In this document: piece by piece, positions 53,343-61,106 of the stretch
Position numbering within the stretch: the stretch's first letter is position 1
How the letters are laid out: the number at the start of each line of letters is the position of its first letter
Source of the DNA: Chaetoceros tenuissimus
Taxonomy: Eukaryota; Bacillariophyta; Thalassiosirophyceae; Chaetocerotales; Chaetocerotaceae
Assembly: GCA_021927905.1 (NCBI GenBank)
Contig: BLLK01000045.1
Location: forward strand, 3,224,001 to 3,288,000
Length of the DNA stretch: 64,000 nucleotides
Direction of reading: 5' to 3'
Notes under the pieces: generated by a model
Told to the model about the DNA's origin: nothing
The model's database searches: none
The model's input: only the letters and a program-made list of their open reading frames with translations
Program-made: the position numbers and the translations under genes

Positions 53343-56004
53343 TCAATCTCTACAAGAAATGCCACTGCGACCACAAAGCTCTTCCTTCATGATTACACCG
53401 TCGATGTCTTCAACATTTAGAGTGTTAAGATTTGGAACAGCATCAGAATCAGCATTAATACTTTTCAATCCTTTATTAGCACTCAAATCAAGCTTCAATA
53501 ATCTCTTTGGATAATCGTCCGCTGTAATAACCAAATCGCCTGCAAACTTGTTATCATTCAAATGAAGTTCCTTCAACTTTTTGAGAATGCCTCCACCAAT
53601 GAAGCCGGTCAACTCATTCTCACCTAAAAATAACAATTTTATAGTAGTAGGGAAGTTGTCCGAAGTCACGGTTAATTTTCCTTCAAACTGATTTTGGGTC
53701 AAAATCAATTTATTAAGATTTGTAAGGATCCCTCCACCTGAGATTCCTGAAAGACCGTTTTTGTTTAGCATCAGTAGAAGAAGGCTCGCTGGGTAGTCCT
53801 TGGCTGTGATGTGAATTTTACCTGTCAACTCATTATCGCTCAAGTAGAGTTGCTTTAGGTTTGGAAGAAACAATCCACCATCGACAAAGCCTGTGAGCTT
53901 ATTTCCACTCAAATGAAGGGACATGAGGCTTGATGGGAATTTATCTTCTGTTATAATCAAGTCACCTACAAACTCATTATACCCAAGTGATATAGCGCGA
54001 AGGTTTGTAAGAACCTCACCATTAATAAACCCTGTCAATCTATTTTCACTTAACATCAAATATTCGATTGATGTGGAGAAGTCATTCGTAGTGATAGTCA
54101 AGTCTCCTGAAAACTCATTACCAGAAAGATAAAGGTATTTCAAATTCATTAGAACCCCTGCACCTGCTATACTAGCAACTCTATTGTTCCCTAGGCCAAT
54201 ATTTGAAAGATATGGGCTGCCCCCAGCAACTGTGAAAGTACCTGATAACTTGTTATCCCATAGTTTAAGGATTGTTAAAGATTTGAAACCGAACATAGTG
54301 AATGATCCATTCAATCCATTCCTGGATAAATCTAGATCTTGAATTTCGTTCTCTTCATTGCATTGGACTCCTTCCCAATCAACTGCATCACAATGATCTT
54401 TAGCTGTTAGCCAAGAAGATTCTAACGTGCACTTTGTCTTGCAGTTAGCAGAGTGAATGAGAGCTAATATAAAACGCTCCTATTTCAAAACGACGAATGC
54501 AAAAAGTGAGCTAAATGTTAGTATTTATAGCTTTCCCTTTGATGATAGATCTTACCTTCATGTAGTTCGCATCATTTTGTTTGCCATCAGATGGATGGTT
54601 AGCCACATCCAAGAACCATTCCTTGGCAGTATCAAAATTATCTTGGCAGTACGAAGAAAAATCCTGTTCCTTCAACAAAGATTCAATGATACCACCAACG
54701 ACGGATCCATCGGAGGCGTAAGATTCTACCTTTTCACAAGGACAGATCTCTGATGGCGGCGATACATACATATTTCGATCACAGACCTCTTTGTTCACAG
54801 CAACATTATTTGTACCAATCAGGAAAAGATTGCGAAGATCAGGAACGGCATCATCATCAATATTGAGATATATCAAGGCATTTCTGTTTAGACCTAGACT
54901 TTCGAGACTATCTGGGAAGTTATCTTTCGTAACACTGAATTCTCCTTCAAAGCTATTGTCAGCTAGGTACAAACCCTTCAGGTTCGTGAGGAAATTGACA
55001 CCTGTAATTGTGGTCAAGTTATTCTGCTTCAAATGAAGCCATTTAATTGTAGGCGGGAAAGTTTCTTTTTTAATGACGAACCTTTCAAAGCTATTGGAAG
55101 ATAGGTCCAAACCCCTGAGGTTTGTGAGTAAGTGCACACCTGTAATTTTTGTCAACTTATTTTGCTTCAAGTTCAGCCATTGAATACTCAGTGGAAAAGT
55201 GTCTTTTGAAATGGTAAACTCTCCCTGCAATATATTCGAAAAAAGATGCAGACTTTTTAACTCTGGGAGATACTGTAAGCCTGAAACGCCTTTTAATTGA
55301 TTTCTTGACACTAGGAGTTTACGAAGAGCTTTCATAGAGAATGAAGCGACTACAAAATCGCCAGAAAGATTGTTAGAGTTTAGATTCAAAACTCGTAGGT
55401 GATCCAACTCAAACAAAGTAAATGATTGACTCAGTTTTCTATTTCGCAGATTTAATTTCGTAATCTCATTAGCACTATTGCATGCTACCCCAGACCATAA
55501 ACAATGATCGCTCGCTCTAACGAGCCAACCACTACTTCTATATTTCAATTTGCAATATTCTTTGCAATTCGCAAAATACATGAGTGCTAGAGTAAGTCGC
55601 TCCTAAGAACACAATGAGGTTTTCGAATATAGATGTTTGAGTAATTAATGAGCACGAGATTGCAGTAAGTGTTTTACCAAACATCAGCTCACCTTCATGT
55701 AATGTGGATCTTCTTCTTTTCCATCATTTGGATGATTTTCAGGAACCAGGAACCATTCCTCTGCAGCACGAAGATCATCTTCATTATAGGAAGAGAAGTC
55801 CTGATTTTCCTTCATAGATGCAACAACTTCCTCTAGAGTAGATGTAGTTATCAGGGATCGTGATGTCTTTGATAATGGTGCAACTGAATTGCCAACTTCT
55901 CTATTTGCATATGTAGCTTCGGGTTCTGGTTCAGCTACTGCTACAACAAATATGCCAAAGAAAGAGATGAGGGCAAGGACAAGAGTAGATTTAGTTTTCA
56001 TCAT
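53343..56004 (-). CDS. Secreted LRR protein B with two tandem modules, 3 exons, 831 aa
   Basis: Exons 55693-56004, 54556-55602 and 53343-54479; introns of 90 and 76 bp, both after a YMK codon triplet and both in phase 0. Exon 1: signal peptide, then QDFSSYNEDDLRAAEEWFL and an end at YMK. Exon 2: ERLTLALMYFANCKEYC, cap DHCLWSGVAC, leucine-rich repeats, then a second copy of the linker (QDFSSYCQDNFDTAKEWFL to YMK). Exon 3: ERFILALIHSANC, cap DHCDAVDWEGVQC, more repeats and the C-terminus. So the gene arose by in-frame joining of two units, each like LRR gene A. No kinase or membrane helix: a secreted recognition or wall protein. Confidence 0.85.
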
Positions 56005-56433: not shown

Positions 56434-56814
56434 ATGACGAAAGATGAAATGAAGCACACTACCGCAAACATAAAGGAGGAGAAGCAACAACAAGAAGAAT
56501 CTAAAAAAGATCCAGTTGATGACTCTTCGAGTTCTTCTTCAATTATTACCGAACTGAGACAAGTCACTCTTGAAATGATCGAATCTCGTGCAGAAGGAAA
56601 GACTTGCTGACCATCGGAAGTACCTCGAAGACTTGCCAAACAAGGAAAAGGAAAACAGAAGAACAATTGGAGAGACTGGATGCCTTTGACACACAGTTTG
56701 ATGAGAGACCTTGTGAAGGAAGGAATATTGGAGATTACTCAGAAAGGTGCTGTAGTAGAGAATTTATCAGAGATGAGAGGTCCTTATCGTATCCGAAAGA
56801 CGTTAGATGAATGA
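56434..56814 (+). CDS. Probable selenoprotein of the DUF3253 family, in-frame TGA as Sec59 (126 aa)
   Basis: From ATG 56434 the frame reads 58 codons to ...AEGKTC, meets TGA at 56608-56610, and continues in the same frame with PSEVPRRLAKQ, NWRDWMPLTHSLMRDLVKEG, ILEITQKGAVVENL, RGPYRIRK to a stop at 56814. The part around the TGA is the hallmark of the DUF3253 family, in which a conserved cysteine stands in T-x-C-P-S-E-V, followed by W-R-x-x-M-P, an ITQKG turn and a final RGPxRIR. The TGA replaces exactly that cysteine, the classic sign of selenocysteine. The N-terminal 45 residues are a charged Ser-rich leader. I found no convincing SECIS element by eye. Alternative: a nonsense allele of a Cys gene. 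Confidence 0.74.
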
Positions 56815-57900
56815 GTAGTATCTTCTTCGCAATGGTGTTTGTATCACATTATGAGAATGACAACATTGATACTGAGCTGAATCTTTGAGGTTTGACTTTG
56901 TTTGAAATCATAATTTGATGATGCATTTACTCTAGAGAAAGAATTAGAGTCTACTTGAAGGCCCCATCTTCCCATCTTCATTTGAAGAATTAAGAAGATT
57001 ATTCATTCGGAGATGACACACCATTATATCATATGAATTAATGAAGAACTACTACGTTCTGTATGAATTGGGAAAGAATCTTTTGTAGTCAAAAGCTCAA
57101 TCTTCGAGTGAACATAAAAATATCTTCGCCTTGACTGGAAAAATGGCAATATTCATTATTTAGAAATATGGAAAATTCTACAATTATCGTAGTAGCCAGG
57201 AGAAATCTACTAGAGCACAAAACTATCAAGAGAAAAGCACAATATAAGACGTAAATACGTACTACAGGTCTTTATTTTATTCAATGCTCTAGTTTATGTA
57301 TGTATCATAGAATGGTGATTAGTCTTGTGGACAAATACGTAATAGATTCTTGAAACTTTACAAATACTCTGCACTCACTCTACTCACAGTCATGCTATTC
57401 AAATACCATTCTCCTCTGCCAAATTACTTTTTGTCCTTGTGCCTCTAATTTACCACCACATTTTCGTGCGCCAAAGCATTGGCATCAACCATCTAAGGAC
57501 TAATGTCTGGGAGAAATCTCATGAACGGAAATCAAATTCTTTCAACGGATTGAAGAAATAAATTAACGTTTTCTTGTATCAATTAGCTCAACTTCAGACG
57601 TTTTGATGCGTTGCCAAGCTATTTAGTAACAATTTTCTCTTGATATGTGTTAGTCCCGATCCAAAAATGTCATTGGTTTCCAACTGACCAAAATTTCAAG
57701 CAGTCAGGAAAAAACTATCATCTCGAGGTGCTCCTAGAGATACTCACTGTAAAAAGTGTTCTTGAAAGGTAATAGTTTGGTAAAAGGCAAAGAAGACCGG
57801 TCAAGGATTCTTCTCCTGCGAACACACTTTGCAAGAGGAAGCTTTGCGAGACGTTCGTACAAATCACAAATAATACACAGACTCCAACCCATTTCCTACA
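56815..57900. other. Intergenic, 1.1 kb; expected place of a SECIS element
   Basis: AT-rich. It holds the dispersed element at 56856 and a 6-bp-stem hairpin at 56929-56950. No other gene was recognised; the right end is the promoter of the ankyrin gene. Confidence 0.45.
56856..56926 (+). repeat. Dispersed 70-bp element, copy 2
   Basis: Similar to 52611-52682. It lies about 40 bp after the DUF3253 stop. Confidence 0.5.
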
Positions 57901-58974: not shown

Positions 58975-59417
58975 TTATGCATTGTCGTTGAAAAAGATGC
59001 TATATTTTAGGTCAAGTTTTCTCAAACTTTTTGTGTACCACTACTCAATTAGAAAATCGTAAAAAAATACGTAATCAATTTTATTAACTTATGATTATAT
59101 ATTCAGAGAAATATCTATATCTATCTGTATATCGTATACGAAATTGTGCTGACAAGGCCATGCATTCTCAAATTGAAAACAAAAACTACAAAATGTTCTG
59201 TAAATAACTATCCGTTGCAAATGTCAGTTGAATAAAATAGCTACAATAATGAGGAAAAGAGGCCTTTTTTGATAGCCACTTCTGAGCCAATCACTTGTCT
59301 CAAAGAAAAGATATCTTTTTTTCTTTCAAAATACGTATGCAGTAGAGAAATCATCATCTAGCTCCCATTTGTTTGACTCTATTCTTCGACTCAGCAATAA
59401 CATCAAAGAACTTCTTG
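58975..59417. other. Intergenic, no gene seen
   Basis: About 440 bp between two plus-strand genes, AT-rich. Confidence 0.4.
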
Positions 59418-61106
59418 ATGTTTCTATCGCCCCTTTCTCTTTTCTTTGCCTTGACTCCAAGCAGCAAACTCGCCTCTTCTTGTATCCGATCCATCTCTTC
59501 TTCTTCTTCCAGCCTCAAAATGAACAACATTATCGTGGTAGGATCGGCAAACGTCGATCTCAACAGCTACTCCTCCTCTCTTCCTAAAAAAGGAGAAACG
59601 ATTCTCGGACATGAATTCAAAACGTCCCTTGGAGGCAAAGGAGCCAATCAATGCATTCAAGCTGCTAAACTCAATCAAAGTCATCGACAAATTCACATGG
59701 TTTGTAAAGTTGGTCAAGATGATTTTGGCAAAGAATTGATTCATAATTTCCAAAAGACCAATGTGAGGTATAGCTCGAGTGATGTGTACAGTGACAAGCA
59801 CACGGGGATTGCGACGATTAATGTAGATTCCGAGGGAGAGAATACCATTGTAGTCTGTCCTGGTTCCAATCACGATCTTACGGCTTCCGATGTGGAGAAG
59901 CAGTTGAATTCCATTTTAGAGAATGATACGGGTGGCAAGGATGGTGTAAAAAATATTGTATTGACTCAATTGGAAATTCCTTTAGAGGCTGCTTTGAAAG
60001 CTATGAAAGTTGGAAAAGAGTGTGAGGCATTGACTATTTTGAATCCAGCACCTGCACCGCAGACTTCATTGGATCCAGAATTTTACAAATTTGTAGATAT
60101 CATTATTCCTAACGAGACGGAATTGAAACAGTTGGTACCAGATTTGAGCAGTGCATCCATTGAAGATATGGCAAAGGGTCTACTTGACAAAGGATTTCAA
60201 AAGGCTGTGATTGTAACCATGGGAAAAGACGGAGCCATGATTGTTGAAAGAATGGATGGAGAAAATGTACAAGTATCTATGGTTTCTGCACCTGATGAAG
60301 TAAAGGATAATCAAGATCCAGTTGTTGATACTGTGGGTGCGGGAGATAGTTTTAGTGGAGCCTTGTCGCACTTTATCGCTTCGGGGCTTTCTATTGCAGA
60401 TTCAGCAATCAAAGCTTGTGGGGTAGCTGGATTGAGTGTTCGTAAGCAGGGAGCTCAAAATTCTTACCCTCATGCAGATGAATTACCAGAATGCCTTAGA
60501 GTATTCGCATCATCAGATGCATCCGCAGTTGACGGACCAAAAAAGGTATTTACATTTGTGACTGGAAATAAAAAGAAACTGGAGGAGGTTCAAACTATTC
60601 TTGGAGGTGAATCCATGAACTTTGAACTAACTAATAAAAAGTTGGACTTGCCTGAATTGCAAGGTAACGATCCTGTACAGGTGGCTATAGAAAAGTGTAA
60701 ACTTGCAGCTCAAGAAGTTAATGGTCCAGTATTCACTGAAGATACTTCTCTTTGCTTCAATGCGCTGAATGGGCTACCAGGACTGTACATCAAGTGGTTT
60801 TTGGAAAAGTGTGGCCATGATGGATTAAATAAAATGTTGGATGGGTTTGAAGATCGAAGTGCATATGCACAAACTGTAGTAGCATTCACAATGGGAGTAG
60901 GAGAAGAAATTCATACCTTTGATGGACGAACTGATGGAAAGATTGTTGCTGCCCGTGGTCCTTTAGACTTTGGATGGGATCCGATTTTTGAACCAAATGA
61001 AGGTGGAGGAAAGACATATGCTGAAATGACAAAGGAGGATAAAAACAAGATTTCACATAGAGGTAGGAGCTTTGAGAAATTCAGAGCTTTCTTATCGAAT
61101 ATGTAA
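59418..61106 (+). CDS. Ribokinase-ITPase fusion protein (562 aa; 528 aa from the second start)
   Basis: Two enzymes in one frame. Ribokinase part (to about residue 365): [13 protein letters not shown], substrate loop GGKGANQ, and the catalytic [11 protein letters not shown], giving ribose 5-phosphate from ribose. Inosine triphosphatase (ITPA/Ham1) part (from about 375): [45 protein letters not shown] and [11 protein letters not shown], which hydrolyses ITP, dITP and XTP. Both sets of active-site motifs are intact. The start at 59418 adds a 34-residue hydrophobic/Ser-rich leader that could target an organelle; ATG 59520 (MNNIIVVG) would give the cytosolic form. The 3' end is 36 bp from the convergent LRR gene. 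Confidence 0.92.

Follow-up and report, generated by a model that had tools for sequence, protein, structure and literature searches.

Selenocysteine (Sec) nearly always stands in for a cysteine with a chemical role, and the families in which it does so are partly catalogued for diatoms and other algae. The accessible part of the T. pseudonana selenoprotein list (PMC2375036) includes GPX, SelT, SelM, SELENOU and MsrA types, and DUF3253 is not named there. A catalogue of algal selenoproteomes, with 42 families (PMC7539508), rests in its main text on the same kind of evidence as that used here; DUF3253 is absent from its abbreviation list and its main text contains no 'DUF' words, the label 'Hypo' being undefined there. 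Neither DUF3253 nor PF11625 is named in the literature searched, which covers the main texts of openly available journal papers. The statement of an earlier note on this DNA, that no description of DUF3253 as a selenoprotein was known to it, thus holds within the literature searched, including the available parts of these two lists.

The locus studied here lies in a 64,000-nucleotide stretch of the Chaetoceros tenuissimus genome, referred to as the window. A reading frame opens with an ATG at 56434, meets a TGA as codon 59 (56608-56610) in the context TC(TGA)PSEV, and continues for 67 sense codons to a second TGA at 56812-56814. The features of the coding part are as follows.

56434 to 56814, plus strand: reading frame, stop included, encoding a DUF3253 protein of 126 residues, the 59th being the putative Sec (translation)
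56551 to 56799, plus strand: DUF3253 domain, residues 40-122, predicted winged helix (Pfam, 69.7 bits; 2ns0 by sequence and by fold)
56605 to 56607, plus strand: Cys58, codon TGC, adjoining the putative Sec59 (translation)
56608 to 56610, plus strand: TGA taken as selenocysteine, residue 59, in the conserved Cys column (frame and alignment)
56812 to 56814, plus strand: terminal TGA stop, 42 nt before the A of the SECIS core ATGA

The read-through protein matches the Pfam model of DUF3253 (PF11625) over residues 40-122 with an E-value of 2.5e-19 and 69.7 bits, against a curated cut-off of 22.1 bits. Conservation therefore extends well past the TGA, to residue 122 in the Pfam match and to residue 123 in the alignment with PDB entry 2ns0. 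A six-frame scan of the genome (41,027,912 bases in 68 contigs) recovered the same match (E 1.8e-16, flagged as containing one TGA) at this locus only, and no second copy was found. Since two other frames of 56611-56814 likewise carry one stop each, an open run of 67 codons says little by itself, and it is the DUF3253 match that counts. The earlier note had reported an in-frame TGA with 67 further codons in a DUF3253 protein, and frame reading and the Pfam match bear this out. It had also named an intron that removes the TGA, or other disabling changes, as what would speak against its reading. By eye no plausible intron covers the TGA, and the frame from 56434 to 56814 contains neither a further stop nor a lost block. 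Elsewhere in the window, one long frame (59373-61106) reads by eye as a ribokinase followed by an ITPase/HAM1-type pyrophosphatase, i.e. a fusion protein, and two adjacent frames on the minus strand (53343-55581) look by eye like leucine-rich repeats of similar composition.

To place the TGA within the family, a 49-row alignment was assembled from the target, nine plasmid homologues and 39 of 80 loci from the genome_contigs collection. In the column of the TGA, each of the 48 other rows has a Cys. The 39 genome_contigs rows are no test of the column, since they were picked with a pattern that includes this Cys (87 stretches fitted the pattern, 83 were confirmed and 80 kept). The nine plasmid homologues were recovered by tblastn, seven with the target as query and two with bacterial queries, and all have Cys at this position, as does 2ns0. 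The claim that the TGA falls on an invariant Cys is therefore sustained, among the 48 rows, by the nine chosen without this motif, and by the PDB structure. Six positions are invariant over the 49 rows when the TGA of the target is read as C, namely R52, C59, P60, S61, G116 and R119. Across the 80 bacterial loci, picked as they were through a Cys-containing pattern, the codon at the column is TGC in 63 and TGT in 17; the comparison with relatives proposed in the earlier note thus sets Cys codons in bacteria against TGA in the diatom. The residue in front of the conserved Cys is Ile in 56 and Val in 24 of these loci, and Cys in none, even though the pattern permitted it. Scans with the single protein gave no relatives in genome_contigs or in viral_contigs. 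The Cys of the family motif C-P-S-[DE] is thus missing from the diatom sequence, which has a TGA in its place; Sec, if the codon is so read, would be its chemical analogue. Since the rest of the match is complete and its score exceeds the cut-off, we consider the target a Sec variant of DUF3253 rather than a plain member.

A TGA can be read as Sec only in a genome that decodes Sec. The Rfam tRNA-Sec model matched ten times in this genome, five times over the cut-off, and because all 14 control genomes match it too, 5 of them over the cut-off, that model alone is not specific. ARAGORN recognised a tRNA-Sec with anticodon TCA in three of the four loci it was given. The five Rfam matches over the cut-off (L002, L003, L004, L005 and L014, the last at 63 bits by Rfam alone) also represent multiple tRNA-Sec genes in a single diatom genome. 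Family searches then returned TGA-bearing matches for GPX (3), Rdx/SelT (1), SelM (1), thioredoxin (1), AhpC (1) and MsrA (3). Three were dropped as controls, a thioredoxin domain (L059), an AhpC (L062) and an MsrA (L162), their TGA lying by eye in a probable intron. Seven loci served as initial selenoprotein controls (L015, L016, L017, L018, L030, L163 and L164). Three loci from the SELENOU search (L027, L028 and L026) had first been placed among the contrasts because their matched segments contain no TGA; the TGA lies just 5' of the matched segment, in a U-x-x-C motif (FGUFLC, RSLGUPFC and PGUVLC, with U-P-F-C in L028). The final sets comprised ten selenoprotein genes, of GPX, SelT, SelM, MsrA and SELENOU types, and 47 contrast genes. 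A search for thioredoxin reductase in the genome did not lead to a recognisable Sec copy. The tRNA-Sec genes and the ten TGA-bearing selenoprotein genes confirm that this genome decodes Sec, as the earlier note had supposed for diatoms in general.

The Rfam SECIS_1 model found no match in the whole genome, and a SECIS test specific to this genome was built for that reason. Rfam SECIS models were equally blank in the target region and in four control selenoprotein loci, which makes their miss at the target uninformative. In the 3' flanks of the seven initial controls, AATGAC follows a G or T in seven of seven. As contrasts, 51 other loci were taken from this genome, of which one was excluded for an open frame shorter than 240 nt, leaving 50; some of their ends possibly mark the end of an exon, and the set includes a few loci from a shared gene. 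AATGAC was present 30-85 nt from the stop in four of these 50. While L026, L027 and L028 were still counted among the 50, an energy scan that demands a good helix 2 put them at ranks 7, 1 and 2, respectively. As their TGAs were recognised only afterwards, the scan found selenoprotein genes without using their TGA. With the final sets, and with motif and energy cut-offs fixed after controls and target had been inspected, [GT]AATGAC 30-95 nt from the stop is present in all ten selenoprotein genes and in the target, and in 0 of 47 contrasts. The A of ATGA stands, reckoned from the stop codon's first base, at a distance of 43-91 nt in the ten controls (shortest in L017, longest in L027) and 45 nt in the target. 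A hairpin accompanies the motif in ten of the ten selenoprotein genes. A search for a hairpin with [GT]AATGAC, at 43-91 nt after the stop, may thus serve as a simple finder for more selenoproteins in this diatom, where Rfam SECIS_1 gives none. Two further SECIS-like sites with the core motif were seen without an assigned gene, near position 411 of L005 (plus strand) and near position 162 of L164 (minus strand), with energies of -15.6 and -16.3; they possibly belong to further selenoproteins.

Downstream of the DUF3253 frame, this test points to a candidate SECIS composed of the following parts.

56842 to 56924, plus strand: SECIS-like hairpin, 3' of the DUF3253 gene (the genome's own core motif and helix energies)
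56842 to 56854, plus strand: helix 1, 5' arm, TATCACATTATGA (duplex energy with the 3' arm)
56855 to 56861, plus strand: 5' core GAATGAC, with the quartet TGAC at 56858-56861 (motif in 10 of 10 against 0 of 47)
56862 to 56902, plus strand: helix 2 with the apical part, 41 nt long; weak, at -2.2 kcal/mol (energy)
56903 to 56906, plus strand: 3' core TGAA
56908 to 56924, plus strand: helix 1, 3' arm, TCATAATTTGATGATGC (duplex with the 5' arm)

Helix 1, formed by the two arms in register with both cores, has an energy of -12.2 to -13.1 kcal/mol, according to how long a duplex is permitted; when a core is planted in random sequence, -12 is attained in 3.1% of 4000 trials. Helix 2 consists of AACA/TGTT and an irregular upper stem and reaches only -2.2 kcal/mol, where the ten controls have -6.3 to -17.4. 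Taken jointly, the two helices give -14.4 in the target and -8.8 to -23.5 in the controls, and among the 47 contrasts no ATGA core in that zone does better than -10.0; planted-core random sequence attains -14.4 in 2.3% of 1500 trials. The 64-kb window contains 19 [GT]AATGAC sites on its two strands, among which the target site is the best by energy. The element therefore carries the core motif, the position and the helix 1 of a SECIS, and its joint energy is within the control range, its helix 2 being weaker than that of all ten controls. The earlier note had named the absence of a SECIS as evidence against its reading; what is found is a SECIS-like element 45 nt from the stop, with this reservation on helix 2.

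By eye, the target has neither AA nor CC on the 5' side of its apical loop, where one of them is usually seen, and the controls L018 and L163 apparently lack it too. One SECIS scanner that requires AA/CC found nothing in the target flank, and a second such scanner listed three sites there, none of them being 56842-56924. Comparison of the predicted fold with shuffled sequences gave z-scores of -0.83 and -0.68 for the target region, no better than shuffled; among four controls, L164 scored -0.80 and the other three -1.45 to -3.62. An alternative core at 57063 scored -9.5 and was dropped. By eye the target SECIS resembled the one of the SELENOU-like L028 in primary sequence, but the likeness is weak (p 0.047) and was also discarded, two unrelated contrasts, L035 and L033, scoring higher.

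The target also ends in TGA. The ten controls end in TAA or TAG and have no TGA after the Sec codon (the TAG of L017 lying behind an intron, by eye), and TGA stops occur in 11 of the 50 contrast genes. The terminal UGA precedes the core by about 43 nt and the internal one by 247 nt, and the minimum UGA-SECIS distance is given as 51-111 nt in the accessible part of PMC6163693, presumably from mammalian data. Set against this minimum, the two distances suggest that the internal UGA could be read as Sec and the terminal one as a stop.

Taken together, a TGA at the conserved Cys, intact sequence downstream of it, a Sec-decoding genome and a rightly placed SECIS-like element indicate that the DUF3253 gene very probably represents a new selenoprotein family with putative Sec insertion. 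The UGA at 56608-56610 would be decoded as selenocysteine under the direction of the hairpin at 56842-56924 in the 3' UTR, with the ordinary eukaryotic machinery of SECIS-binding protein, eEFSec and tRNA-Sec. The UGA at 56812-56814 would stay a stop because the SECIS is too near. The product would be a small winged-helix protein with Sec59 beside Cys58 at the start of helix 2, and the diatom may have upgraded a conserved thiol to a selenolate, with a resolving Cys alongside.

The same data can be approached from the side of gene decay. If a Cys codon had recently turned into a stop in a dying gene, next to a hairpin that resembles a SECIS by chance, one lone stop is the look that would be expected, and the genome has no second copy that was found. 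Helix 2 is weak, and the scan that demands a good helix 2 without requiring AA/CC, the one that put L027 and L028 first, ranked the site low: its best target site, at -5.0, is below all seven controls tested, and 21 of 50 contrasts equal or beat it. Against such a young pseudogene stands the position of the stop. Assuming TGC or TGT at codon 59, single-base changes could produce 68 nonsense mutations in this frame, 19 of them TGA, and just one of the 68 hits codon 59, exactly where Sec is expected. The sequence downstream is intact, and the flank holds the SECIS core of this genome with an in-register helix 1 at the usual distance. In 75 fetched loci (484,486 bases, with both strands and overlaps counted, a set enriched for selenoprotein genes), 62 distinct sites were found, nine of which attain -14.4, seven of the nine being known selenoprotein SECISs. 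This leaves a background of about two unexplained sites per 484 kb, or about 3e-4 per 65-nt zone. We therefore regard a young pseudogene as improbable.

The weakness of helix 2 compared with the ten controls, next to an intact core and helix 1, would also suit a gene that formerly decoded Sec and whose SECIS has since degraded, so that little protein, if any, is now produced. The coding part is without decay, and this history appears highly improbable. A wrong base in the assembly, or splicing or editing that takes the TGA out of the mRNA of an ordinary Cys protein, has a practically negligible probability, because an error would hardly coincide with both a conserved Cys position and a nearby SECIS-like element, and an intron across the TGA would also delete conserved DUF3253 residues (alignment, by eye).

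Read as a selenoprotein, the gene also bears on what DUF3253 may do. A structure model of the protein has a mean pLDDT of 82.7, with low confidence for the first ~30 residues, and contains helices at 31-51, 62-69 and 79-95 and strands at 99-103 and 119-122. The sole significant PDB match by sequence is 2ns0 (profile, E 1.3e-29), which is also the sole significant match by fold (E 5.2e-6, TM 0.85 on 2ns0); Fur, PadR and O-methyltransferases are among the weaker matches by fold, which fall short of significance. According to this model the diatom protein is a winged helix as in 2ns0, and Sec59 is placed just ahead of the helix 62-69, at the start of helix 2. Since Sec nearly always replaces a chemically active Cys, the conserved Cys of DUF3253 is suggested to be reactive and not merely structural. 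Of 80 bacterial segments, 66 carry just one Cys in the DUF3253 domain, which disfavours an internal disulfide as the normal role of the family. Most likely, the start of the helix would activate the conserved DUF3253 thiol as a reactive site for sensing or handling oxidants, electrophiles or metal. A more specific proposal, rather doubtful at this stage, is that the diatom protein acts as a selenium-based sensor with a winged helix, a fold of the nucleic-acid-binding type, in which the Cys-Sec pair reacts with oxidants, electrophiles or metal and thereby alters the binding of DNA, RNA or a partner. Were this so, DUF3253 would be a redox switch and diatoms would gain a selenium-dependent regulator. 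Bacterial DUF3253 proteins are without known function, and the idea of a reactive Cys is directly testable in these Cys forms.

The surroundings of bacterial DUF3253 genes were inspected in five plasmid contexts, with no constant neighbour. In one of the five, from Sphingobium, DUF3253 adjoins DUF2256, a small domain with C-x-x-C motifs, and the two domains are fused in 2 of the 80 loci (L089 and L091, both Myxococcota; the motif is in frame and Pfam confirms it). The diatom genome itself has three DUF2256 matches (L170, L171 and L172), apparently from two genes.

If the selenoprotein reading is right, selenoproteins gain a family outside the thioredoxin fold, which can be compared with known systems on two sides. 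On the protein side, bacterial DUF3253 (PF11625; PDB 2ns0, Rhodococcus RHA04536) has in common with the diatom protein the domain, the fold, and the R, C/U-P-S, W, M, G and R marks. It differs in the residue preceding the conserved position, Ile or Val before Cys in the 80 pattern-picked bacterial loci and Cys before the putative Sec in the diatom. On the RNA side, helix 2 of the SECIS is stronger in the known selenoprotein genes of the same genome than in the DUF3253 gene. In these GPX, SelT, SelM, SELENOU and MsrA genes, the TGA marks the Sec residue of the respective family and a SECIS with [GT]AATGAC follows on the 3' side; the DUF3253 gene described here likewise has its TGA where Sec is expected and a SECIS-like element with this core on the 3' side.
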